Below, piece by piece: positions 21,318 through 57,327 of a stretch of DNA of 64,000 nt. The DNA is from Fusobacterium mortiferum ATCC 9817 (GTDB taxonomy: Bacteria; Fusobacteriota; Fusobacteriia; Fusobacteriales; Fusobacteriaceae), in assembly GCF_000158195.2 (NCBI RefSeq), contig NZ_GL987994.1, positions 368,343 to 432,342 of the forward strand, given 5' to 3'. The position numbers were made by a program, and so were the translations under genes. A model generated the notes under the pieces. That model made no database searches, was not told the origin of the DNA, and saw nothing but the letters and a program-made list of their open reading frames with translations. Within the stretch, counting starts at the first letter, position 1; every line of letters starts with the position of its first letter.

Positions 21318-21500
21318 AAAAAAGCCGATAGAGGAGCAAATGACAAGAGTAGGATTGTGGAGTTTTGCAAACGACGAAACAATTTGAAAGGGGATTTTGC
21401 CGAAATGGAAAAGAAGCTAAACTTTTCTGTTGGCAATATGAATAATATTCATATTGCTGTCATTGATAAAAAAGGTCAGTGGAGAGCTATCTGTGTGTCA
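21318..21500 (+). promoter_or_regulatory. Lysine riboswitch (L box)
   Basis: Matches the lysine aptamer core in order: GATAGAGG followed by GCAAATGACAAGAGTAG, then TGAAAGGGGATTTTGCCGAAA, a P4 hairpin closed by TGTTGGCAATATG...CATATTGCTGTCA, and GGAGAGCTATCTG. The P1 stem pairs GATAG at 21327-21331 with CTATC at 21487-21491. It lies in the leader of the YfcC-type transporter gene, upstream of an intrinsic terminator. By the known mechanism, lysine binding favours termination, so transporter expression should fall when lysine is plentiful. Confidence 0.93.
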
Positions 21501-25267: not shown

Positions 25268-25398
25268 CTTTTATTTTTATTTTAACAAGTATAAATTACT
25301 AAAATTTTTTAAAATCTAAAAAGGTAATTTTTAGAAAAAAGGTATTTTAAAAAGAGTATAATTAAGGTAAATAAATTTTTTAATAGGAGATGGTATTA

Positions 25399-26382
25399 AT
25401 GGATTTATTTGTACAAAAAAATGGAAGTAAGATATATAGAGAAAAAGAGTATTTTGTTGTAGAAAGAAAAGAAGAGGGAAAGGAGTATTTTTCATATAAT
25501 CTTATTGATAATATTATAATACAAGAGGGGAATCAATTAACAAGTGATTTTCTTTTAGAGATTATAGAAAAAGATATTCCATTGTATCTTGGGGATAAGT
25601 ATGGAAATATTAGAGGAAAATTTACTCCAATAACCTATAATACCAATAGCAATATAAGAGAAAGACAATATCAACTTTGGATAAGAGAGTATGGAAAAGA
25701 ATTAGGAAAATCTTGGATAATGGAAAAAATAGAGAATCAAAAGAAACATATACAGAAAATTTATTCGAGACGAGGAGTGTTGGATAAATTTTTAGAGATA
25801 GAGAGAAAATTTGATGAGAATATTACAAAAATAAAAAATATTACTTGGAATGATAAGGATTTTGAAAATAGAGTGATGGGATATGAAGGTAGGAGTAGTA
25901 TTTTGTACTATGAAGAGATAAAAAAATTTTTACCAGAAAATTGGAGTTTTACAAAAAGAGAGACACAGGGAGCGAAAGAACCTTATAACATTGTATTAAA
26001 TTATGCTTTTGGTATATTGTATTTTAAATTAGAAAGATATTTAACTTTAGCTGGCTTAGATATACAATTAGGAATTATCCATTCCAATAATAATAAAAGT
26101 AATTCTTTAATTTTTGATTTTATTGAACCTTTTAGAATATTAGCTTGGGAATGTGCTTTTTCACTTTTTAGTAAAAAAGAATTAAATAAAAATTATTTTA
26201 ATCTTAATGAAGGTAAGATTGAATTAGAAGGGAAAAGAGTGATAGCTAAAGATTTATATAATAGATTGAAAAATATAGTAGAGTATAATGGAAAAAAGAT
26301 GAGCTATGAAGAGAAGATTGAAAAAAGAGCTAAAGAACTTGTAAAGGAATTGATGAAAAATGAAATATATAGTAAGTTATGA
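25399..26382 (+). CDS. cas1: CRISPR integrase Cas1
   Basis: Metal-dependent integrase that inserts new spacers together with Cas2. From ATG 25390 the protein is 330 aa, but AGGAG abuts that codon, while ATG 25399 has it nine bases upstream, so 25399 is preferred (327 aa, MDLFVQKNG). Catalytic residues, numbered from 25390, are E166 in GYEGRSSILYY, H231 in GIIHSNNNKSNSL and the acidic FDFIEPFR (D243/E246). A candidate -10 TATAAT is at 25357-25362. The 3' end overlaps the first cas2 by 23 bases. Confidence 0.95.
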   Translation: MDLFVQKNGSKIYREKEYFVVERKEEGKEYFSYNLIDNIIIQEGNQLTSDFLLEIIEKDIPLYLGDKYGNIRGKFTPITYNTNSNIRERQYQLWIREYGKELGKSWIMEKIENQKKHIQKIYSRRGVLDKFLEIERKFDENITKIKNITWNDKDFENRVMGYEGRSSILYYEEIKKFLPENWSFTKRETQGAKEPYNIVLNYAFGILYFKLERYLTLAGLDIQLGIIHSNNNKSNSLIFDFIEPFRILAWECAFSLFSKKELNKNYFNLNEGKIELEGKRVIAKDLYNRLKNIVEYNGKKMSYEEKIEKRAKELVKELMKNEIYSKL

Positions 26383-26650
26383 TATTTCAGTTGGAAAAAT
26401 TAGAAAAGAGTTTAGTGATTTTTTAAAAAGCGAGGGATTTATTAGGATACAAAAGTCTGTATTTTTAGGAAAAATAAATAAGAAATATATGTATAAAAGA
26501 TTTAGAGATTGGATAGAAAAAATAGATAAGATAGAAGATTCGATTATAGTTTTTCCTCTATGTGATTTAGATTTTGAAGAATCTTATTTTTTAGGAATAA
26601 CTTTTGATATAAAAGATATTGAAAAGTTTGAAAATATGTTTATAATGTGA
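26360..26650 (+). CDS. cas2: Cas2, first copy
   Basis: Small ferredoxin-fold protein, 96 aa, that bridges Cas1 dimers in the spacer integration complex. It has the N-terminal strand KYIVSYDIS with the conserved Asp at position 8 and the RIQKSVFLG motif. It overlaps the cas1 end by 23 bases, so translation is coupled. A second Cas2-like gene follows after 6 bases. Confidence 0.92.
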   Translation: MKYIVSYDISVGKIRKEFSDFLKSEGFIRIQKSVFLGKINKKYMYKRFRDWIEKIDKIEDSIIVFPLCDLDFEESYFLGITFDIKDIEKFENMFIM

Positions 26651-26656
26651 GGAAGT

Positions 26657-26941
26657 ATGAAAGTTATAATAGCTTATGATATAATAGAAAATGGAGTGAG
26701 AAATAGAATAATAGAAGTTTTATTAGAAGAAGGAATGATGAGAATACAAAAATCTGTATTTTTTGGAGAAATCAATGAGAAAAAAATAAAAAAATTAGTT
26801 AAAAGAGTAGAAGGAATAATTGATAAGGAGATAGATTCATTATATTTTTTTAAATTATGTGAGAAGGATTTCTCTAAGGTAAATTATTTTGGAAAAAATA
26901 TAGAGTTTCATTTTTTTAATAAAGATTTTTTTATAATATGA
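26657..26941 (+). CDS. cas2: Cas2, second copy
   Basis: Second Cas2-like protein, 94 aa: KVIIAYDI with Asp at position 8 and RIQKSVFFGEI. It is clearly homologous to the first copy but diverged along its whole length, so this is not a recent duplication. It ends 25 bases before the conserved leader of array 1. It could form a heterodimer with the first copy, or one of the two may be regulatory. Confidence 0.9.
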   Translation: MKVIIAYDIIENGVRNRIIEVLLEEGMMRIQKSVFFGEINEKKIKKLVKRVEGIIDKEIDSLYFFKLCEKDFSKVNYFGKNIEFHFFNKDFFII

Positions 26942-26965
26942 TATTGATTTTATTTTTGAAATAGA

Positions 26966-27173
26966 GTAGAATATAGAAAACGGAATGAGAGGAAAAAAGA
27001 TAAAATACCTTTCAACTCCTTTTAAATAGAGAGCTAGGAAAGACGAAATGGATATAAAAAATAGAAGTTTTTAGATGGAAAAGTGGTAAAAACTAGTAAA
27101 AAAGAGTAAAAATTAACGAAAGAAAAAAGAGTTAGAAGTAAGGAAAAAAGATAGATTGAGTTAAAAATATAGG
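26966..27173 (+). promoter_or_regulatory. Leader of CRISPR array 1
   Basis: Stretch of about 208 bases without a gene, closely similar to 36599-36806 ahead of array 2. Shared blocks include GTAGAATATAGAAAACGG, AATTAACGAAAGAAAAAA and an identical final block AAAAAGATAGATTGAGTT that continues to the repeat. Leaders hold the array promoter and the integration signal for Cas1-Cas2. Confidence 0.85.
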
Positions 27174-27681
27174 GTTAAAAGATAGGACCAGTAACAATAA
27201 GGATTGAAACAAACTAATATTTCAGTTCTCATTATACCCCCTTATCGTTTTAAGTTAAAAGATAGGACCAGTAACAATAAGGATTGAAACTTTGATTTTC
27301 TAGCTTTTTTACACTCATAGCACTTACCACAGTTAAAAGATAGGACCAGTAACAATAAGGATTGAAACTTTTTTACCTCTTAATTCAATTTTTAATATTT
27401 TTAAGTTAAAAGATAGGACCAGTAACAATAAGGATTGAAACCTAAATTATTTGTTTTTCCACCTTGAATTTTAGTTGTTTTTTGTTAAAAGATAGGACCA
27501 GTAACAATAAGGATTGAAACTTTATTAATTTAAAGGGTTACGGCTCTCTGGCTCGAGTTTCCTTATAAGTTAAAAGATAGGACCAGTAACAATAAGGATT
27601 GAAACTCCTAAATGCAATTCTATTCCTAATTGCATAATAAAGCTATTTAAGTTAAAAGATAGGACCAGTAACAATAAGGAT
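27174..27681 (+). CRISPR. CRISPR array 1: 7 repeats, 6 spacers
   Basis: Repeats of 37 bases begin at 27174, 27254, 27332, 27405, 27484, 27569 and 27651, starting GTTAAAAGATAGGACC and ending AAGGATTGAAAC. The first six are identical; the seventh matches only 31 bases before diverging, which marks the leader-distal end. Spacers are 43, 41, 36, 42, 48 and 45 bases, the long and variable lengths usual for type III. The last eight repeat bases, ATTGAAAC, would form the crRNA 5' handle after Cas6 cleavage. I found no spacer match within the window. Confidence 0.98.
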
Positions 27682-44071: not shown

Positions 44072-44095
44072 AGTTATACAGATGAGGTGAGTGAG

Positions 44096-45124
44096 TTGGA
44101 TAAATTGCATTTAGATAGATGTTCAATTGGTGGTTGAGCAAGTAAAATAGGACCAGAGGTTCTTTCAGAAATATTACATGATCTTCCGAGTGTGGAGGAT
44201 AAAAATTTAATAGTAGGATTTGAAAAATCAGATGATGCTGCTGTATATAAATTAACTGAAGATTTAGCAATTATACAGACATTGGATTTTTTTACTCCTA
44301 TGACAGATGACCCATATATTTTTGGACAGATAGCTGCGGCAAATTCACTAAGTGATGTGTATGCTATGGGGGGACAACCTAAGACAGCTATGAATATAGT
44401 ATGTTTTCCACAAAAGATGGATATAAAAATATTGGGGGAGATATTGAGAGGTGGAGCTGAAAAGGTAATGGAAGCTGGAGCTGTTCTAAGTGGTGGACAC
44501 TCTATACATGATCCAGAGGTAAAGTATGGGCTTTCAGTAACAGGAATAGCACACCCAGATAAGATTTTAAAAAATCATGGTTGTGAAAATGGAGATATCT
44601 TAATATGTACTAAAAAGCTTGGAACAGGGATAGTTACAACTGCATCAAAGGTAAATCTTGCAAGTAAAGAGGCAATAGATGAGTCTGTAAAACAGATGAC
44701 AACTTTGAATAAATACGCTGCTGAGATAATTGTAAATTATCCTATTACAGCTTGTACAGATATAACTGGATTTGGTTTTTTAGGACATGCATATGAGATG
44801 GCAAAAGGTTCTGATAAAACATTGGTATTTGAGGGAGATTTTATTCCATATATAGCAGATGCTAAAGAGTACGCTAAAGAGTTTTTAATAACTACTGGTG
44901 GACAACAAAATAGAAATTTTATAGGTAGAGATATAGATTTTGGAAAAAATCCTCTTTGGTTACAAGAGATAATGTTTGACCCACAAACTTCAGGTGGACT
45001 TTTATTCTCTGTAAAAAAAGAGCAAGTGGGAGCTCTTATGAAAGAGTTTCAAGAAAAGAATATAGATGCCTATATAATAGGTTCTGTTGAAGAGAAAAAA
45101 GAGAAATATTTAATTGTGAGGTAG
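44096..45124 (+). CDS. selD: Selenophosphate synthetase SelD, itself a selenoprotein (in-frame UGA)
   Basis: Makes selenophosphate from selenide and ATP. The frame runs from TTG 44096 (GAGGTGA six bases upstream; GTG 44087 is an alternative) through TGA at 44135-44137 to TAG, 342 aa. The TGA is codon 14 in CSIGG-U-ASKIGP, exactly where SelD proteins carry the catalytic Cys or Sec. A hairpin AGGACC-AGA-GGTTCT (44149-44163) starts 11 bases after it, the right place for a bacterial SECIS. Later motifs such as LDFFTPMTDDPYIFGQIAAANSLSDVYAMGG and SGGHSIHDPE are complete. Plain ORF calling starts it falsely at 44192. Confidence 0.92.
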
Positions 45125-45127
45125 AAG

Positions 45128-46488
45128 ATGAATAATCTTTTTCGTAAACTTCCTAAACTAGATATACTTATGAAAAATGAAAAATTAGATGAGTGTAGAG
45201 AGAAGTTAAATTATAACACTTTATACACTCTAGTAAAAAATGAGATAGATAGTTTTAGAGAAAAAATAAAAAACAGAGAGATAGAGGATTTTCAAGTAGA
45301 AGACATAATAAAAAATATCCTAGATAGAGCAAAATTTGCTGGGAATAATAAGCTAAAAAAAGTAATTAATGGAAGTGGAGTAATTATCCATACAAACCTT
45401 GGCCGTTCTGTACTTAATAAAAAAGTAGTAGAGAAGATGGGAGAGGTAGTAAGTAATTATAATAACCTTGAGTATGATTTGGAAACAGGAAAAAGAGGAC
45501 ATAGAAACTCACATGTTGAGGAATTGATATGTAAGATAACAGGAGCAGAGGGAGCTCTAGTAGTTAATAATAATGCTGCTGCTGTAATCATCTGTTTGAA
45601 TGAATTTGCTAGAGGAAAAAACTCTATTGTATCAAGAGGAGAGTTAGTAGAGATTGGTGGTTCTTTTAGAATACCAGATATAATGGAACTATCTGGTTCA
45701 AAATTAAAAGAGGTAGGGACTACAAATAAGACTAATATTTCAGATTATGAAAGAGCTATTGATGAGGAAACTGCACTTATTTTAAAGGTTCATAGGTCAA
45801 ATTTTAAAATAACAGGATTTACTGACGAGGTAGGAAATAGAGATATATCAAACCTTGGAAAAGAAAATGGAATACTTACTATGGAAGATTTAGGAAGTGG
45901 AGTTCTTGTAGATTTTTCAAAATATGGAGTAGTGAAAGAGCCTACTGTACAGGAGAGCATTTCTTCTGGAATAGATATAATTACAATAAGTGGAGATAAA
46001 CTCTTAGGTGGACCACAGTGTGGTATTATTTTAGCTAAACAAGAGTATATAGCAAGACTTAAGAAAAATCAGTATCTGAGAGCTTTTAGAGTGGATAAAC
46101 TAGTTTTATCTGCTTTGGAAGGAACACTAAGATACTACCTTGATGAGAGAGAAGCTGTAAGAGAGATACCTACTCTTAGAATGATAACCGAGGATAAAAA
46201 GAGGTATTAAAAAGAGCAGAGAAACTTCAAAAAATGCTGATAGAAAAAAATATATCTACAAGTATAATAGAAACTAGAGCAAAAATAGGTGGAGGCTCTA
46301 TGCCAGAAGAAACTGTACCTAGTTATGCTTTAGTATTTACAGGAGATGCTGTAAAATTAGAAAAGTATTTCCGTACTGGAGATATAAATATAATTGGAAG
46401 AGTAGCTGATGACTCATTTATCTTGGATATAAAAACTATAAGAGATGAGGATATGGAAATAATAGTAGAAAAAGCTATTAATATGTAA
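45128..46488 (+). CDS. selA: Selenocysteine synthase SelA, with a one-base frameshift
   Basis: PLP enzyme that converts seryl-tRNA-Sec to selenocysteyl-tRNA-Sec. Frame 1 of the gene gives 360 aa (45128-46210) with NLGRSVLNK, EGALVVNNNAAAV and the PLP lysine in SGDKLLGGPQ. It stops soon after LRMITEDKK. The remainder, EVLKRAEKLQKMLIEKN to the end at 46488, is in another frame. Adding one A to the five-A run at 46196-46200 restores a 453-aa SelA of normal length. It is either a sequencing or assembly undercall, a real mutation, or rescued by slippage. Confidence 0.88.
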
Positions 46489-46521
46489 AAAAATTGAGAT
46501 AATGAGAAGGGGGTGAGAAGA

Positions 46522-48381
46522 GTGAGAGATATAGTAGTGGGAATGGCAGGACATATAGATCACGGAAAAACAACAGTAGTAAAATATCTTACAGGAGTGG
46601 ATACCGATACATTACCAGAGGAAAAATCTAGAGGAATGACAATAAATTTAGGATTTACTCAGATAAAGTTTGACGATGGAAGTAGAGTTGGACTTATAGA
46701 TGTACCTGGGCATGAAAAATTTATAAAAAATATGAGTGCAGGGGTTTCAGGTGTGGATTATCTGCTTATGGTGATAGCTTGTGATGATGGAATTATGCCA
46801 CAGACAGAAGAACATTTCCAGATATTAAAACTCTTTGGTGTAAAAAAAGGAATGATACTTCTTACAAAGAGAGATTTAGTAGATGAGAAGAGATATGAAG
46901 AGGTAAAAAAACAGTGTAGAGAGTATTTTAAGGGTAGTTTTTTAGAAAACTCTCCTCTTCTCCCTCTTTCAATAACCGATATTGAAAGTTATAACACTCT
47001 TAAAAATTTATTGAAAGATGAGTTAAAAAAAATAGATTTAGAAGAGAAAGAGAGATACTTTCGAATGGATATAGATAGGGTATTTTCTGTAAAAGGTTTT
47101 GGTTGTGTAGTAACAGGAACAGTAAAAAGTGGAAAGATAAGCGTAGGAGATACTCTTACAATCTATCCTCAAAATAAAATGGTAAAGGTAAAAGGTTTAG
47201 AGTCTCACGGAGAAAAAAAGGATAGTATAGGAACAGGAAATAGATGTGCTATAAATCTAGCTGGAATAGAAAGTAGTGAGATAAAAAGAGGGGATATTAT
47301 AGGAAAATCTCTTTTAACAGGAGATAAAATAGAGTGTAAATTAACTCTTTTAGAGAACTCTCCTAAGATAAAAAATAATCATAGGATAAGATTAAATATT
47401 GGAACTGATGAGATAATAGGAAGAGTAAAAATTTATGAAAAAAATTATATTTTAGCTGGAGAAATAGCTTTTGTACAAATAGATTTAGAAGAGATACTAG
47501 GGGGAGTATTAAAAGAGAGAGGAGTAGTTAGAAATTACTCTCCAATATCTACAATTGGTGGAATAGAGCTTCTGGATTTTTCTAAAAAAGAGTTTAATAG
47601 AAAAGATACAAAGCAGATAGAATTACTTAAGGTGTTATCTCAAGAGGACAATGAAAAAAAAGTAGAAGAGTTAATAAAAATTGATAGAGAGTTAGAGAAT
47701 ATTTTTTCTCTTTTTGGGGAGGAAATTTCCTTAGAAAATCTCATTGAAACTAAGAAGGTTTTTCTTTTGGATAAAAAATATATTCATAGAGATACACTCT
47801 TAGAAAAAATTTCTATAATAGTAGATGAGTTAGAAAAATTTTATAGTGAGAATAGATTAGTGAGAGGAATTTTAAAATCTCAAATAAAAGAGAGATATTT
47901 TAAAAATTACTCATTAAAATATTATAATAAATTTTTTGATTTAGATTTAGTAAAAGAGAAGATAACAGTAGTAGATGAGCTAGTAGCTTTAAAAGAGTTT
48001 AAAATAAGATTAAATAAAGAGGAAAAAAATATGAAAGAGGAGATTTTCTCCTATTATAAAGAGCAAAAATTTAATTTGAAACCTTATTCCTACTACTTGG
48101 AAGTTACTAAAGATAAAAATTTATTTGAACAAGTGCATAGATATATGGTTGAAGAGGGATTTATTCAATATTTAGAAGAGGAGTACTATATATTAAATGG
48201 ATATTTAAAAGAGAGTACAAAGCTTATTACAAATTTTCTTGAAAAAAATAGGAAAATACAAGTGAAAGAGGCAAAAGAGGTATTGAATAATAGTAGAGAT
48301 AGTAGTATACTTATCTTAAGGAAATTAGATACTCTAAAGGTAACTAAAAATATAGATGGAGTCAGAGTATTGATAAAATAG
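46522..48381 (+). CDS. selB: Selenocysteine-specific elongation factor SelB
   Basis: Delivers Sec-tRNA to UGA codons next to a SECIS hairpin. The N-terminal GTPase domain has GHIDHGKTT, the switch stretch SRGMTINLGF and DVPGHEKF. EF-Tu-like beta barrels follow, and the C-terminal half (about 360-620) carries the winged-helix repeats that bind SECIS. GTG 46522 is preferred because GGGGGTGA lies 5 bases upstream; GTG 46513 (622 aa) falls inside that site. Its substrates here include selD and the gene at 54522. Confidence 0.94.
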   Translation: MRDIVVGMAGHIDHGKTTVVKYLTGVDTDTLPEEKSRGMTINLGFTQIKFDDGSRVGLIDVPGHEKFIKNMSAGVSGVDYLLMVIACDDGIMPQTEEHFQILKLFGVKKGMILLTKRDLVDEKRYEEVKKQCREYFKGSFLENSPLLPLSITDIESYNTLKNLLKDELKKIDLEEKERYFRMDIDRVFSVKGFGCVVTGTVKSGKISVGDTLTIYPQNKMVKVKGLESHGEKKDSIGTGNRCAINLAGIESSEIKRGDIIGKSLLTGDKIECKLTLLENSPKIKNNHRIRLNIGTDEIIGRVKIYEKNYILAGEIAFVQIDLEEILGGVLKERGVVRNYSPISTIGGIELLDFSKKEFNRKDTKQIELLKVLSQEDNEKKVEELIKIDRELENIFSLFGEEISLENLIETKKVFLLDKKYIHRDTLLEKISIIVDELEKFYSENRLVRGILKSQIKERYFKNYSLKYYNKFFDLDLVKEKITVVDELVALKEFKIRLNKEEKNMKEEIFSYYKEQKFNLKPYSYYLEVTKDKNLFEQVHRYMVEEGFIQYLEEEYYILNGYLKESTKLITNFLEKNRKIQVKEAKEVLNNSRDSSILILRKLDTLKVTKNIDGVRVLIK

Positions 48382-48390
48382 GAGGGAGCT

Positions 48391-48966
48391 ATGGTAAAAG
48401 TAGATGCTATTGGGCAAGTGTGTCCAGTACCAATTATAATGACAAAAAATGCTTTAAAGGATATAGAGGAAGGACAGGTAGAGGTATCTGTTGATAATAG
48501 AATCTCATTAGAAAATCTACAGAAGATGTCAAAAGAGATGGGGTATGACTATACAGTAGAAGAGAGTGGAGATATTTTTAAAATTGTAATCAATAAGATG
48601 AGAGAGAGCGTAGAGCTAAGAGAGAGTGAAGAAAATACAGTTGTAGTTATAGATTCTTTACATATGGGTAAAGGAGATGTAGAGTTAGGAAGAATACTTA
48701 TGAAAGGATTTATTTATACACTCTCTGAGATAGAGGAACTACCTAAAACAATTCTTTTCTATAATGAAGGAGTTAAACTTGCAATAGAGGGAGCAGAGAG
48801 TTTACAAGATTTAAAATCTTTAGAAGAGAGAGGAGTAGAGATTCTATCTTGTGGAACTTGCTTGAATTTCTATGGAATAACTGAAAAATTAAGAGTAGGA
48901 AGTGTTACTAATATGTATACTATCCTTGAAAGACAGATGAAGGCAACAAGGGTGATTAAACCATAA
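48391..48966 (+). CDS. yedF: YedF-type selenium metabolism protein
   Basis: Protein of 191 aa with an N-terminal TusA-like domain (DAIGQVCPVPIIMTKNAL, with the CPxP motif) and a C-terminal DsrE-like domain that has the short Cys motif LSCGTCLNFYG near residue 160. YedF proteins co-occur with selD and selAB and are thought to handle reduced selenium. The position inside the sel operon supports this role. It overlaps the next gene by one base. Confidence 0.88.
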   Translation: MVKVDAIGQVCPVPIIMTKNALKDIEEGQVEVSVDNRISLENLQKMSKEMGYDYTVEESGDIFKIVINKMRESVELRESEENTVVVIDSLHMGKGDVELGRILMKGFIYTLSEIEELPKTILFYNEGVKLAIEGAESLQDLKSLEERGVEILSCGTCLNFYGITEKLRVGSVTNMYTILERQMKATRVIKP

Positions 48967-49226
48967 TGAAAGTTGAAAAGTTTCTATTATTAGTTTCAGA
49001 CTCTACTCATTATGTGATGAAATTAGAAAAACTCTTGCAAAATTCTCAAATATGTTGTAGAATAATACCGTTGCCTAGAGAGGTAAGTGCTGGGTGTGGT
49101 CTTTCTATTAGGGCAGAGCTTTCTGACAAAGAGATAATTGAAAAAATCTTAAAAGATAATGAGATTGAAGTAACTAAGTATCTTATAGAAAAAGAGGGGC
49201 TTAAGAAGAGAGTAGAGAAAATTTAA
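48966..49226 (+). CDS. DUF3343 protein, putative Se/S carrier
   Basis: Protein of 86 aa. The segment CCRIIPLPREVSAGCGLSIR has the conserved cysteine of DUF3343 (putative Se/S carrier-like) proteins, which often sit beside YedF and tRNA-Sec. It starts on the last base of the yedF stop. The role in passing selenium is proposed for the family, not shown here. Confidence 0.82.
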   Translation: MKVEKFLLLVSDSTHYVMKLEKLLQNSQICCRIIPLPREVSAGCGLSIRAELSDKEIIEKILKDNEIEVTKYLIEKEGLKKRVEKI

Positions 49227-49227
49227 T

Positions 49228-49319
49228 GGAAGCGGGAGAAAGCTGGTGCTTTCAGCAGTCTTCAAAACTGTAGGGTGGCTTAGGTCATTGGTAGGTTCGA
49301 TTCCTACACGCTTCCGCCA
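49228..49319 (+). tRNA. selC: tRNA-Sec (anticodon TCA)
   Basis: Acceptor strand GGAAGCG pairs with CGCTTCC at 49309-49315, followed by G and an encoded CCA (49317-49319). The anticodon stem GCAGT / ACTGT encloses the loop CTTCAAA, so the anticodon TCA is at 49262-49264. The extra arm is long, and the T arm GTAGGTTCGATTCCTAC is standard. The extended D and acceptor regions fit a selenocysteine tRNA. It lies one base after the DUF3343 gene, inside the sel operon. Confidence 0.95.
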
Positions 49320-52030: not shown

Positions 52031-54520
52031 ATGAAATTTATATATGATAGAAATAAAACCGCAGTAATTTTTGGGGATAGAGAGTATAGTTACAAGGAGA
52101 TAATAAAAGGGGTAAAATATTACTCTACACTTTTAAAAGAGAGTGGAAAAGTAGTAGTAACTATGGAAAATAGACCTGAAATGATATGTTCAATATTTTC
52201 TATTTGGGATAAAAAAGAGACAGCAATAGTTTTAGATTCTGGATATACAGGGGAGCAATTTGCTTATGCTTTTTCAGACTCAGAGCCAAGATATATTTTT
52301 ACCTCTAAAAAGGTGTATGAGAGAGTAAAAGAGGGAGTGGAGTTATCTAAACAGAATATAGATATAATTATAGTAGATGATATTGAGATATCAGAGAATT
52401 TTGTTCCAGAAAATTATGAGGTAGAGATAGATGATATGGAGAGGGTAGCACTATTACTTTATACATCAGGAACAACAGGAAATCCTAAGGGAGTTGTATT
52501 GACTTTTAATAACTTAGAGTCAAATATCAGAGCTGTAAGAGAGATAGAGTTAGTAAATGACCAAGATAGAGTTTTAGCTATACTACCTTATCATCATATC
52601 TTACCATTGAATCTAACTTTACTTATGCCAATGTATTTTGGAACATTTTTAGTAATCTTAGAGGAGCTATCATCAGAAGCACTGAAATTAGCTCTAAAAA
52701 AACACCAAATAAGTGTAATAATTGGAGTGCCAAGAGTATGGGAGATGCTACATAAGGCTATAATGGGAAAAATCAATAGTAATTTTGTAGCTAAAAAACT
52801 TTTTAATCTTTGTAAAAAAGTAAATAGTTTAGCTCTTAGCAAGAAGGTGTTTAAAAAAGTAGCTGATGAACTAGGTGGAAATATGAGAGTTCTTGTTTCT
52901 GGAGGAGCAAAGCTTGACCCAGAGGTTTCTGCTAATTTTAAAGTATTAGGACTTCCTATCATAGAGGGATATGGTCTTACTGAGACATCTCCTATTATAG
53001 CTTTTAATCGTCCAAATAATAATGTTATAGGTTCTGCTGGACAACTTATTCCAAATATTGAAGTAAAGATAGCTGAAGATGAGGAGATACTAGTAAGAGG
53101 AGCCAATGTAATGAAAGGATATTATAAAAATCCTCAAGCTACCTCTGAAGCTATTGATAGTGATGGTTGGTTTCATACTGGAGATTTAGGAAAATTTGAA
53201 GGGGATTCTCTATTTATAATTGGAAGAAAAAAAGAGATGATAGTTTTATCCAATGGTAAAAATATAAATCCAGGGGATATTGAATCAGCTATTTTAAAAG
53301 AAACTGATTTAGTAAAAGAGATAGCAGTTATGGAGTACAACAATCATTTGATGGCTGTAGTTTACCCAGATTTTGATTTGATAAAGAGAAGAAAGATAGC
53401 TAATATCAAAGAGACTTTAAAATGGGAGATTATAGATAAATACAATGTAACTGCTCCTAAATATAGAAAGATATTAGAAGTAAAAATTGTAAAAGATGAG
53501 TTACCAAAAACTAAACTTGGAAAAATCAGAAGATTTATGCTTAAAGATTTCTTAAAGAAATCTGATGAAGAGGAAAAAGAAAATACTCAAGAGAAAAAAG
53601 AGACAGTAACTGTTCCTCAAGAGTTAAAATTTGAATATGAAACATTAAAAAAATATTTAGTATCTACTTTTAATTGTGAAGTTGAACCAAATTTTCATTT
53701 AGAATTAGACTTAGGATTAGATTCTTTAGATATTGTAGAGATTTTATCATTTATAGAGACAAATTTTGGAGTAAAAATAAGTGAAGAGCAATTTAGTAAT
53801 CTAAAGAGTATATTGGATATAGCTAAATTTATAAAAGAGAATGGTGGAGAGTATCACGAAGAGGAGATGGATTGGAAAAGTATCCTAAATCAAGATATAG
53901 ATGTACCTCTTCCAAAATCTAGCTTTGTATTAAGAGCTATAAATATAATTGTAAAACCAATATTTTCTCTATACTTCCGTTTACGTAAAATAGATACAGA
54001 TAAGCTTGTAGAAAATCCAGCTCTATATATAGGAAACCATCAAAGTTTCTTAGATGCATTGATATTTAGCCAAGCTATACCTCTAAAAAAATTAAAAGAT
54101 ACTTACTTTATAGCAGTGGTTACACATTTTGATACACCACTTAGAAGATATTTAGCTGAGAGAGGAAATATCATCATAATAGATATAAATAAAAATCTAA
54201 AAGAAACTCTACAAATTTCAGCTAAAGTTTTAAGAGAGGGGAAAAATCTTGTTATATTCCCAGAGGGAGCAAGAACAAGAGATGGAGAGTTACAGGAGTT
54301 CAAAAAAACATTTGCTATTCTTTCTAAGGAGTTAAATATTCCAGTAGTACCATTTGGAATAAGAGGAGCTTATGAATCTATGCCTTATGGAAGTAGCTTC
54401 CCTAAATCTTCTCCTATTGATATTAAATTTTTTGATGAGATAGAGCCAGAGGAATTAACTATTGATGAGATAGTACAAGAAGCTAGAAAAGAGATAAATG
54501 ATTGGTTAAAAGAGGATTAG
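52031..54520 (+). CDS. Acyl ligase - acyl carrier protein - acyltransferase fusion (first copy)
   Basis: Protein of 829 aa with three parts. Residues about 1-510 are an AMP-dependent fatty acid ligase (YTSGTTGNPKGV; GYGLTETSP; KMIVLSNGKNINP-like core). Residues about 545-620 are a carrier domain with the phosphopantetheine Ser in LGLDSLDIVE. Residues about 640-829 are a PlsC acyltransferase (NHQSFLDA and FPEGARTRDG). It probably activates fatty acids, holds them on its own carrier and passes them to lysophospholipids, as Aas does. A paralogue follows at 54859. Confidence 0.9.
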   Translation: MKFIYDRNKTAVIFGDREYSYKEIIKGVKYYSTLLKESGKVVVTMENRPEMICSIFSIWDKKETAIVLDSGYTGEQFAYAFSDSEPRYIFTSKKVYERVKEGVELSKQNIDIIIVDDIEISENFVPENYEVEIDDMERVALLLYTSGTTGNPKGVVLTFNNLESNIRAVREIELVNDQDRVLAILPYHHILPLNLTLLMPMYFGTFLVILEELSSEALKLALKKHQISVIIGVPRVWEMLHKAIMGKINSNFVAKKLFNLCKKVNSLALSKKVFKKVADELGGNMRVLVSGGAKLDPEVSANFKVLGLPIIEGYGLTETSPIIAFNRPNNNVIGSAGQLIPNIEVKIAEDEEILVRGANVMKGYYKNPQATSEAIDSDGWFHTGDLGKFEGDSLFIIGRKKEMIVLSNGKNINPGDIESAILKETDLVKEIAVMEYNNHLMAVVYPDFDLIKRRKIANIKETLKWEIIDKYNVTAPKYRKILEVKIVKDELPKTKLGKIRRFMLKDFLKKSDEEEKENTQEKKETVTVPQELKFEYETLKKYLVSTFNCEVEPNFHLELDLGLDSLDIVEILSFIETNFGVKISEEQFSNLKSILDIAKFIKENGGEYHEEEMDWKSILNQDIDVPLPKSSFVLRAINIIVKPIFSLYFRLRKIDTDKLVENPALYIGNHQSFLDALIFSQAIPLKKLKDTYFIAVVTHFDTPLRRYLAERGNIIIIDINKNLKETLQISAKVLREGKNLVIFPEGARTRDGELQEFKKTFAILSKELNIPVVPFGIRGAYESMPYGSSFPKSSPIDIKFFDEIEPEELTIDEIVQEARKEINDWLKED

Positions 54521-54521
54521 T

Positions 54522-54833
54522 ATGGAGATATTCATAGATAAAAAAGTCCAAAACTATTATTTACAACATAATTATAAAGGCATTGTATTAAAAAAAGAGA
54601 TACAATCTTTTGGGTGAGCTGGATGTAGAGATATAATTCAAGGTGAATTTGTAAAAAATAGTGATTTATTAAAAGAAAATAAGATAAAATATGAAGAGAA
54701 GGATATAGAAGGGATAAAAGTGTTTATCCCTAAATATCTTAATTTAAATAATATTAAAGAGATTAGAATAACAAGATTATTCAGTGTTTTTAGTAAGGTT
54801 ATGCTACTGAATATTGAATTGAGTCAAATATAA
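54522..54833 (+). CDS. Putative HesB-like selenoprotein (in-frame UGA)
   Basis: Frame of 103 aa from ATG 54522 to TAA 54831-54833, with TGA at 54615-54617 (codon 32) read as Sec in the context QSFG-U-AGCRD. A hairpin AATTC-AAGGT-GAATT at 54635-54649 begins 17 bases after it, with GGT in its loop, as in bacterial SECIS elements. The rest continues without stops (EEKDIEGIKVFIPKYLN). Layout and the U-x-x-C motif resemble HesB/IscA-like selenoproteins. A strong upstream ribosome-binding site is not obvious; the gene follows the ligase stop by one base and may be coupled. Plain ORF calling misses it. Confidence 0.75.
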
Positions 54834-54858
54834 TATTTTAATATTGAGGGGGATTTTG

Positions 54859-57327
54859 GTGAATTTTGTAAAAGATTATAATAAGACTGCTATTATTTAT
54901 GATGGAAAGAGAATAAGCTACAGTGAGGTTATCAAAAAAAGTAAATATTTCTCTACTCTTTTTGATATCAAACCTCAGGATAAGGTTATCATCTTTATGG
55001 AAAATAGACCAGAATTATTATATAGTTTTTTAGGGACTTGGGATAAGAGAGGAACTTGTGTATGCTTAGATGCTAGTTTTAGTGGGGAAGAGCTAGTATA
55101 TTATTTAAATGATTCAGATGCTAAGTTTATTTATACATCTAATGGAAGTCAAAAAGCTGTGGTAGAGGGATTGGCTCTATCAGGAAAAACTTCTGAAGTA
55201 AAAGTAATAAATGTAGATGAGATAGAAGTAAAAGATATTGAGATAAAAGAGTATATTTTAAAAGCTCCAGAGAGAGATGATATAGCTCTTATGCTATATA
55301 CCTCAGGAACAACAGGAAATCCTAAAGGGGTAATGCTAAAATTTGATAATATTTTAGTCAATATAGAGGGATTAGATAAATATAAGATGTTTATTTCGGA
55401 AGATATAGTTTTAGCTCTACTTCCTATGCATCATATTTTTCCACTTTTAGGAGCAGGAGTAGTTCCTTTAGCTAAGGGAGCAACTATTGTCTTTTTAAAA
55501 GAGTTATCATCTCAAGCAATGGTAGAAGCTTTTAAGGAACATAGGGTAACTATGATGATAGGGGTTCCTAGACTCTGGGAGATGTTACATAAAAAGATAA
55601 TGGAAAAAATTAATTCTAGCAAAGTAACTAAAGCAGTATTTAAATTAGCTGAAAAGATAGAGAGTATAAGTATAAGAAAGAAAATTTTTAAAAAGGTTCA
55701 CGAAGGTTTTGGTGGGAATGTAAGATTTTTTGTTTCTGGAGGTTCTAAACTAGATCCACAAATATCAAAAGATTTCCTAACTTTAGGAATACAAGTGTGT
55801 GAAGGTTATGGAATGACTGAGACATCTCCAATGATATCTTTTACTCCTATCAATGAGATTGTTCCAGGTTCTGCTGGAAAAATTTTGCCAGGGGTAGAGG
55901 TAAAAATCTCTGAAGATGGAGAGATTTTAGCTAGAGGTAGAAATGTAATGGCTGGTTACTACAAACGTCCTGAAGCAACAGCAGAGACAATAGATAATGA
56001 AGGTTGGATACATACAGGGGATTTAGGAGAATTAAAGAATGAGTATTTATATGTAACAGGGCGTAAAAAAGAGATGATAGTTCTATCTAATGGAAAAAAT
56101 ATAAATCCAGTGGAGATAGAGCAATGGATAATGGCTAATACAAATCTAATTCAAGAAATGGCAGTAGCTGAAGTGGACTCTGTACTTACAGCAGTTGTAT
56201 ATCCTAATTTCCAAAAAATAGTTGAAGAAAAAATAACAAATATAAAGGAAACTCTAAAATGGGGAGTAATAGATAAATATAATGGAAAAGCTCCTAATTA
56301 TAGAAAAATATTAGATATTAGAATAGTCCAAGAGGAACTACCTAAAACTAAACTTGGAAAAGTAAGAAGATTTATGTTGCACTCTCTTTTAAATAAAAAG
56401 GAAGAGGAGAATATAAAGATAGAGGAGCCTAAATTTCAAGAGTATTCAGAATTAAAATCATATTTAGAGAAAGTGAAGAATAAGAAGATTACTCCTATGG
56501 CTCATCTTGAATTAGATTTAGGATTAGATTCTTTAGATATGGTTGAACTTCTTACTCATCTAGAAACAAGCTATGGTATTAAGGGAGAAGAGAGTATAAT
56601 AGTTAATAATCCTACTGTTGAAAAATTAGCTAATTATATAAAAGAGAATAGAGGAGAGAGAAAATTTGAAGAGATAAATTGGAAAGAGTATCTTAATCAA
56701 GAGAAAAATATTACTCTTCCAAATTCAAATATAGCTATACATCTAATAAAAGCTCTACTTTGGTTACCTTTAACTCTATATATTAGAGTAAAAAAATCAG
56801 GAATAGAAAATATTCCAAACGATAGACCTGTAATTTTTGCTGGAAATCATCAAAGCTTTTTAGATGCTTTTATATTTGGATATGCAACTCCATTTAAATA
56901 TTTAGTAAACTCCTATTCACTTGCTAAAATAAAACATTTTAATAAAGGATATCTGAAATTTTTAGCAAACCATTCCAATGTTGTATTAGTAGATATAAAT
57001 AAAAATCTAGGAGAAGTTCTGCAAACTATGGCTAAGGTATTAAAAGAGGGAAAAAATATAGTTATATTCCCAGAGGGAGCAAGAACAAGAGATGGAGAGA
57101 TGTTGGAATTTAAAAAAGCTTTTGCTATTTTAGCAAAAGAGATGGAGGTAGATATTGTTCCTTTTGGAATAAGAGGAGCTTATGAAGCTTTTCCAGCTAA
57201 TTCTAAATTACCTAAGCCAGCTCAAGTAGAAATAAAGTATTTTGAACCAATATCTTCAAAGGATAAAAGTTATGAAGAGATTGTTCAAGAAACAAGAGAT
57301 ACTTTGATTAAGTGGGTAGGAAAATAG
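54859..57327 (+). CDS. Acyl ligase - acyl carrier protein - acyltransferase fusion (second copy)
   Basis: Paralogue of the gene at 52031 with the same three domains, 822 aa from GTG 54859. That start aligns with the first copy and lies six bases after GAGGGGG; the TTG at 54844 is inside that site. YTSGTTGNPKGV (ligase), LDLGLDSLDMVE (carrier Ser) and NHQSFLDAF with FPEGARTRDG (acyltransferase) are all intact. The pair differ across their length, so they may prefer different acyl chains. A terminator follows. Confidence 0.9.
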   Translation: MNFVKDYNKTAIIYDGKRISYSEVIKKSKYFSTLFDIKPQDKVIIFMENRPELLYSFLGTWDKRGTCVCLDASFSGEELVYYLNDSDAKFIYTSNGSQKAVVEGLALSGKTSEVKVINVDEIEVKDIEIKEYILKAPERDDIALMLYTSGTTGNPKGVMLKFDNILVNIEGLDKYKMFISEDIVLALLPMHHIFPLLGAGVVPLAKGATIVFLKELSSQAMVEAFKEHRVTMMIGVPRLWEMLHKKIMEKINSSKVTKAVFKLAEKIESISIRKKIFKKVHEGFGGNVRFFVSGGSKLDPQISKDFLTLGIQVCEGYGMTETSPMISFTPINEIVPGSAGKILPGVEVKISEDGEILARGRNVMAGYYKRPEATAETIDNEGWIHTGDLGELKNEYLYVTGRKKEMIVLSNGKNINPVEIEQWIMANTNLIQEMAVAEVDSVLTAVVYPNFQKIVEEKITNIKETLKWGVIDKYNGKAPNYRKILDIRIVQEELPKTKLGKVRRFMLHSLLNKKEEENIKIEEPKFQEYSELKSYLEKVKNKKITPMAHLELDLGLDSLDMVELLTHLETSYGIKGEESIIVNNPTVEKLANYIKENRGERKFEEINWKEYLNQEKNITLPNSNIAIHLIKALLWLPLTLYIRVKKSGIENIPNDRPVIFAGNHQSFLDAFIFGYATPFKYLVNSYSLAKIKHFNKGYLKFLANHSNVVLVDINKNLGEVLQTMAKVLKEGKNIVIFPEGARTRDGEMLEFKKAFAILAKEMEVDIVPFGIRGAYEAFPANSKLPKPAQVEIKYFEPISSKDKSYEEIVQETRDTLIKWVGK

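Follow-up and report, generated by a model that had tools for sequence, protein, structure and literature searches.

A conserved selenocysteine protein of predicted HesB-like fold in Fusobacterium and a neighbouring genus

As judged from sequence comparisons, a small gene in the window (the whole stretch of 64,000 nucleotides of Fusobacterium mortiferum ATCC 9817 DNA analysed here) encodes a real selenocysteine protein, conserved in Fusobacterium and in a neighbouring genus. Its single in-frame TGA is almost certainly read as selenocysteine by SelB and tRNA-Sec, under the direction of a hairpin located 17 bases downstream. The complete proposal, in which selenocysteine is inserted, the protein adopts a HesB fold and Sec32 and Cys35 form a redox site, strikes us as an even bet. 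The features on which the analysis is based are the following:

44087-45124, + strand: selD, itself a Sec gene (TGA at 44135-44137, motif G-G-U-A-S; start codon inferred)
45128-46488, + strand: selA, whose frame is broken near 46190-46205 in the assembly, so that it reads as two ORFs
46513-48381, + strand: selB (TIGR00475 over cut-off in G000 at this place)
49228-49319, + strand: tRNA-Sec (ARAGORN and Rfam RF01852)
52031-54520, + strand: AMP-binding/PP-binding/acyltransferase fusion, the upstream neighbour (Pfam; by synteny not a conserved partner)
54512-54516, + strand: ribosome-binding site GAGGA, inside the 3' end of the upstream ligase gene
54522-54833, + strand: selenoprotein gene of 103 codons (ATG at 54522, TAA at 54831-54833; predicted IscA/HesB fold, motif G-U-A-G-C)
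54612-54626, + strand: motif codons GGG TGA GCT GGA TGT (G-U-A-G-C), with the candidate U32/C35 pair (alignment and Cys census)
54615-54617, + strand: in-frame TGA, codon 32, almost certainly read as selenocysteine; invariant in all 18 orthologues
54635-54649, + strand: bacterial SECIS-like hairpin AATTC-AAGGT-GAATT (stem 54635-54639/54645-54649, loop AAGGT)
54844-57327, + strand: second AMP-binding/PP-binding/acyltransferase fusion, the downstream neighbour (Pfam; synteny)

An earlier note, made from the letters of the window, had described a 103-codon frame with one internal TGA in a G-U-A-G-C context, a hairpin 17 bases past this codon with GGT in its loop, and selD, selB and tRNA-Sec genes elsewhere in the window. 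On direct reading of the sequence the frame and the hairpin were exactly as described, and the three components of the selenocysteine machinery were all present. The gene fits snugly between two large ligase genes, its start lying 1 base past the stop of the first; the GAGGA site, also read directly, is separated from the ATG by 5 nt, and AGGAGG-type sites precede the equivalent start in relatives. Ordinary gene calling would truncate the product to 31 residues at the TGA.

A scan for frames of at least 90 codons interrupted by a single TGA, with both parts long, returned nine in the window, two of them outside ordinary ORFs. The second of these two (26360-26941) consists of two tandem cas2 genes and was rejected as a Sec candidate, which leaves 54522-54833 as the sole single-TGA frame outside ordinary genes. 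The cas2 pair belongs to a region (25390-27680) that also holds cas1 and a CRISPR array with 7 copies of the repeat GTTAAAAGATAGGACCAGTAACAATAAGGATTGAAAC, and a lysine riboswitch (Rfam RF00168) is found at 21321-21497.

When 100 related genomes were searched with the 103-residue protein, we recovered its own copy and 17 orthologues (34-69% identical), from 10 further species of the same genus and 7 species of a second Fusobacteriaceae genus. All 18 sequences carry the TGA at the equivalent codon (codon 30-33), within G-[TGA]-A-G-C and in a frame open on both sides. Residues invariant in the alignment flank it in either direction (G20, G31, U32, G34, I39, E42, K45, K66, V67 and P70). Between the window gene and its nearest relative, dN/dS was about 0.2 on either side of the TGA (0.249/1.262 before it, 0.208/1.011 after it), indicative of purifying selection in both parts. 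The distribution of the gene is narrow: it is missing from many Fusobacteriaceae and from all the order-level relatives searched, and a profile search of 389 genomes gave no matches outside Fusobacteriaceae.

The conservation on both sides of the TGA that the earlier note had proposed to look for was thus found, and continues past the TGA in relatives. An unrelated sense codon at that position, which would have spoken against selenocysteine, occurs in none of them, the only sense replacement in the wider family being Cys. As for homologues with Cys in place of U32, the outcome was split: no Cys orthologue was found within the GUAGC clade among the 100 related genomes, while a related subfamily has K-U-C-P in three genomes (G037, G046 and G058, all with SelB) vs K-C-C-P in G059, a SelB-less assembly that is 82% complete.

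The hairpin is present at equal distance past the TGA in 26 sequences, Sec forms of the sister subfamilies included, with 96.2% of cells paired and 13 double-change cells as compared with 3.4 in shuffles. Columns 22-34 are occupied by AU (17 sequences), CG (7) or GC (2), with no mismatch. The element accordingly lies just 3' of the UGA, has an invariant G (G28) in its loop and covaries, as expected of a SECIS. Since the hairpin overlaps coding sequence, protein constraint contributes to its conservation; the compensatory exchanges, however, argue for a kept RNA structure.

SelB scored over the curated cut-off in all 18 genomes carrying the gene and, more broadly, in 27 of the 28 genomes having a TGA form of any related protein, as opposed to 26 of the 72 others (Fisher p 1e-8); the lone genome with a TGA form and no SelB is a 76%-complete assembly. 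The selD gene of the window carries a TGA itself, implying that its true start lies upstream of the one chosen by the ORF finder (44192). Between selB and tRNA-Sec (48391-49226) there are genes for a TusA/DsrE protein (YedF type) and for a PF11823 Se/S-carrier protein.

The selA gene of the window shows a one-base frameshift in a poly-A run, as compared with an open-frame stretch that is 99.6% identical in G009. The gene is unbroken in 10 of the 12 genomes of the genus, and G001 has a separate poly-A shift further on. The frameshift could be a sequencing error; with selA frameshifted in the assembly, selenocysteine synthesis in ATCC 9817 itself is unproven. The near-identity to G009 extends over positions 46061-46330 (matching L105), although the Sec proteins of the two genomes are less than 50% identical, suggesting a recent transfer of, or recombination in, the sel block between these genomes.

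The fold prediction proposed in the earlier note was carried out with AlphaFold and Foldseek, and pointed to an IscA/SufA (HesB) fold. The model had a pLDDT of 87 and a pTM of 0.78, and its first five Foldseek matches were all of the IscA/HesB fold, the leading ones being SufA, YneR, AQ_1857 and a Lactobacillus Fe-S protein. For SufA the probability was 1.00 (E 4e-3, TM about 0.48 with the predicted model); TM-scores were modest throughout (0.45-0.49), and the E-values of the window protein were all above 0.001. A sister subfamily gave firmer values (SufA, E 2e-4; IscA, E 7e-4), and a BFVD search added just two matches, both viral and of the Fe-S assembly type. Pfam and PDB sequence searches returned no useful family.

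Profile comparison placed G-U-A-G on the G-C-x-G of HesB proteins (35%, E 4e-4; reversed or shuffled nulls at most 2.8%), with U32 aligned to the first conserved Cys of both A-type carriers and HesB-like selenoproteins. The same procedure gave 97% with fusobacterial CC/UC relatives. In the tree, the fusobacterial proteins form one group, separate from the NF041239 members (support 99/95), while the GUAGC group itself has moderate support (81/68). These results support an IscA/SufA/HesB-like fold in which Sec32 would sit at the tip of a beta-hairpin, in the position of the first conserved A-type Cys.

The window protein contains exactly one Sec and one Cys, arranged as U32-A-G-C35 at the beta-hairpin turn. 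Every TGA member listed has a Cys no more than 3 residues away from U (at +3 in 17 of them, at -2 in one), sister clades have it at U+1, and Cys-only relatives keep CC, CxC or CxxC in the loop. The C-terminal C-x-C of A-type carriers is absent, leaving Cys35 as the one other chalcogen near Sec in the loop, and we infer that activity resides in the Sec32/Cys35 pair, which would most likely act as a reversible selenol-thiol/selenenylsulfide redox site. For such a two-chalcogen site, redox chemistry would be our first choice and binding of a metal or cluster a close second; that the second Cys lies at varying distances fits both equally well.

A metal-binding role can be pictured as that of a trimmed A-type carrier, whose ligands for iron, a [2Fe-2S] cluster or a soft metal (copper, for example) would be Sec32 and Cys35, perhaps shared between the subunits of a dimer. 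This reading is quite possible, if short of probable. The protein would share the HesB/IscA fold, with Sec where a cluster-ligating Cys sits, and the distance between its two chalcogens varies. Moreover, a canonical PF01521 protein was found in none of the 100 related genomes and A-type carriers are reported absent from Fusobacteria (PMC2682760), so that the A-type carrier niche is empty. On the other hand, the C-terminal C-x-C is missing, many Fusobacteriaceae and all the order-level relatives searched live without the gene, and we recognised no isc or suf linkage in the stretches read. The further proposal that this apparently uncatalogued Sec subfamily is the Fusobacteria's substitute for A-type carriers, binding iron or a cluster via U-x-x-C instead of three cysteines, seems unlikely to us. 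The second-ranked fold match, YneR, is a protein of HesB fold that inhibits pyruvate dehydrogenase (PMC10090944), and the window protein might by analogy be a protein-binding regulator of the PdhI/YneR kind, blocking an enzyme and using Sec as a redox sensor. We consider this decidedly unlikely, because the strictest conservation surrounds the chalcogen loop, which suggests chemistry, and because the gene neighbourhood indicates no partner.

The neighbourhood bears also on the idea, put forward in the earlier note, that the protein has a redox or metal-related task in support of the acyl-ligase/acyltransferase fusions. The layout in the window is tight and operon-like, with 1 bp separating the gene from the upstream ligase, and ligases flank the gene in G005, G006, G010 and G011 as well. 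In G009, however, one ligase adjoins it, and in G003, G004 and G008 one ligase together with an F420-ligase-like gene; in the second genus, the neighbours in all seven species are of other kinds (F420-ligase-like, HAD hydrolase, transporter or serine-hydroxymethyltransferase-like genes), and no ligase is among them. With ligases adjoining in one of the two genera, and inconsistently there, the association is too variable between species, and we rejected the link to lipid acylation; the reading as a whole is very improbable. Seven genomes, from both genera, have an F420-ligase-like gene (PF01996) next to the Sec gene (loci L037-L040, L043, L045 and L046), but it was set aside as a partner, its relative orientation being divergent in some cases and convergent in others. 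No conserved gene partner emerged from the neighbourhoods compared. It is hardly credible, finally, that no selenoprotein exists here at all, the locus being either an ORF of 31 codons or a gene in decay that happens to have an open frame past the TGA. Translation table 11 does read TGA as a stop, and selA is broken in the assembly, but the TGA and both its flanks are kept in all 18 species, dN/dS stays low past the TGA, and to these are added the compensatory hairpin changes, the co-occurrence with SelB and the Sec/Cys exchange in relatives.

The preferred reading, a Sec32/Cys35 redox protein of HesB-like fold, can be set against what is known of related families. A 2026 inventory lists 119 prokaryotic selenoprotein families, including HesB-like (TIGR01911, UxGP) and CC/Se (NF041239, CxxU) proteins (PMC13188914); the U-A-G-C protein was matched to none of them, and our literature search found no paper on it. 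What HesB-like selenoproteins do is unclear, even for those that have been labelled with 75Se (PMC11097638). The protein described here would add a conserved selenoprotein subfamily whose members are missed by the curated models TIGR01911, NF041239 and PF01521. Fusobacteria, said to be without A-type carriers, would, to judge from the predicted structures, possess HesB-fold proteins after all, which contain Sec in some cases and Cys in others. The natural Sec/Cys swaps and the moving second Cys may be useful for probing the role of Sec in HesB-like selenoproteins.

The closest named family is NF041239, the CC/Se motif family (Moorella type), whose members, likewise small and HesB-like, are about 95 aa long and carry either Sec or Cys in the loop of the hairpin. 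Comparison of the two profiles by hhalign gave a probability of 90% (E 1.5e-6, with no null above 1.1%), and 27 of the 32 members of alignment A2 matched the family at E at most 1 (best 4.5e-9). The window protein itself, however, reached 20.4 bits (E 4e-4) as against a cut-off of 40 bits, no protein in the related genomes passed that cut-off, and the Sec members of the family that were read have C-x-x-U or C-x-U where ours has U-x-x-C. Two other genomes (G209 and G346; L087-L090) have two adjacent TGA-containing genes of the NF041239 type each, with motifs CFSU and CSTU.

The label "HesB-like" given in the earlier note holds for the fold, by Foldseek and profile alignment, but not for membership of the named families: the TIGR01911 and PF01521 models did not match the protein, the C-terminal cysteines are missing and U-x-x-C replaces UxGP. 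TIGR01911 proteins share with ours the HesB fold and the position of Sec (G-U-G-G-P vs G-U-A-G-C). The window protein lacks both their UxGP (PMC13188914), although one species, L012, has U-A-G-P, and their C-terminal Cys. The model did not match it among NCBIfam results up to E 10, nor did it match anything in Fusobacteriaceae at E 1e-6.

The IscA/SufA/ErpA A-type carriers (PF01521) resemble the window protein in fold and in the position of the first Cys, but of their three ligand cysteines (GCxG plus a C-terminal CxC) the window protein keeps the first position only, as Sec, and has no PF01521 match. The nearest relatives are the sister subfamilies found here, GGU-C-A/S-G (g13), K-U/C-C-P (g4) and KGCCxPY (g14). 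The first of these appears to be a second uncatalogued Sec subfamily, from another Fusobacteriaceae genus (L020, L022, L028, L029 and L031-L033), likewise below the NF041239 cut-off. All three have the fold in common with the window protein, being 17-28% identical to it, and differ in that their second Cys lies at U+1, vs U+3 in the protein described here.
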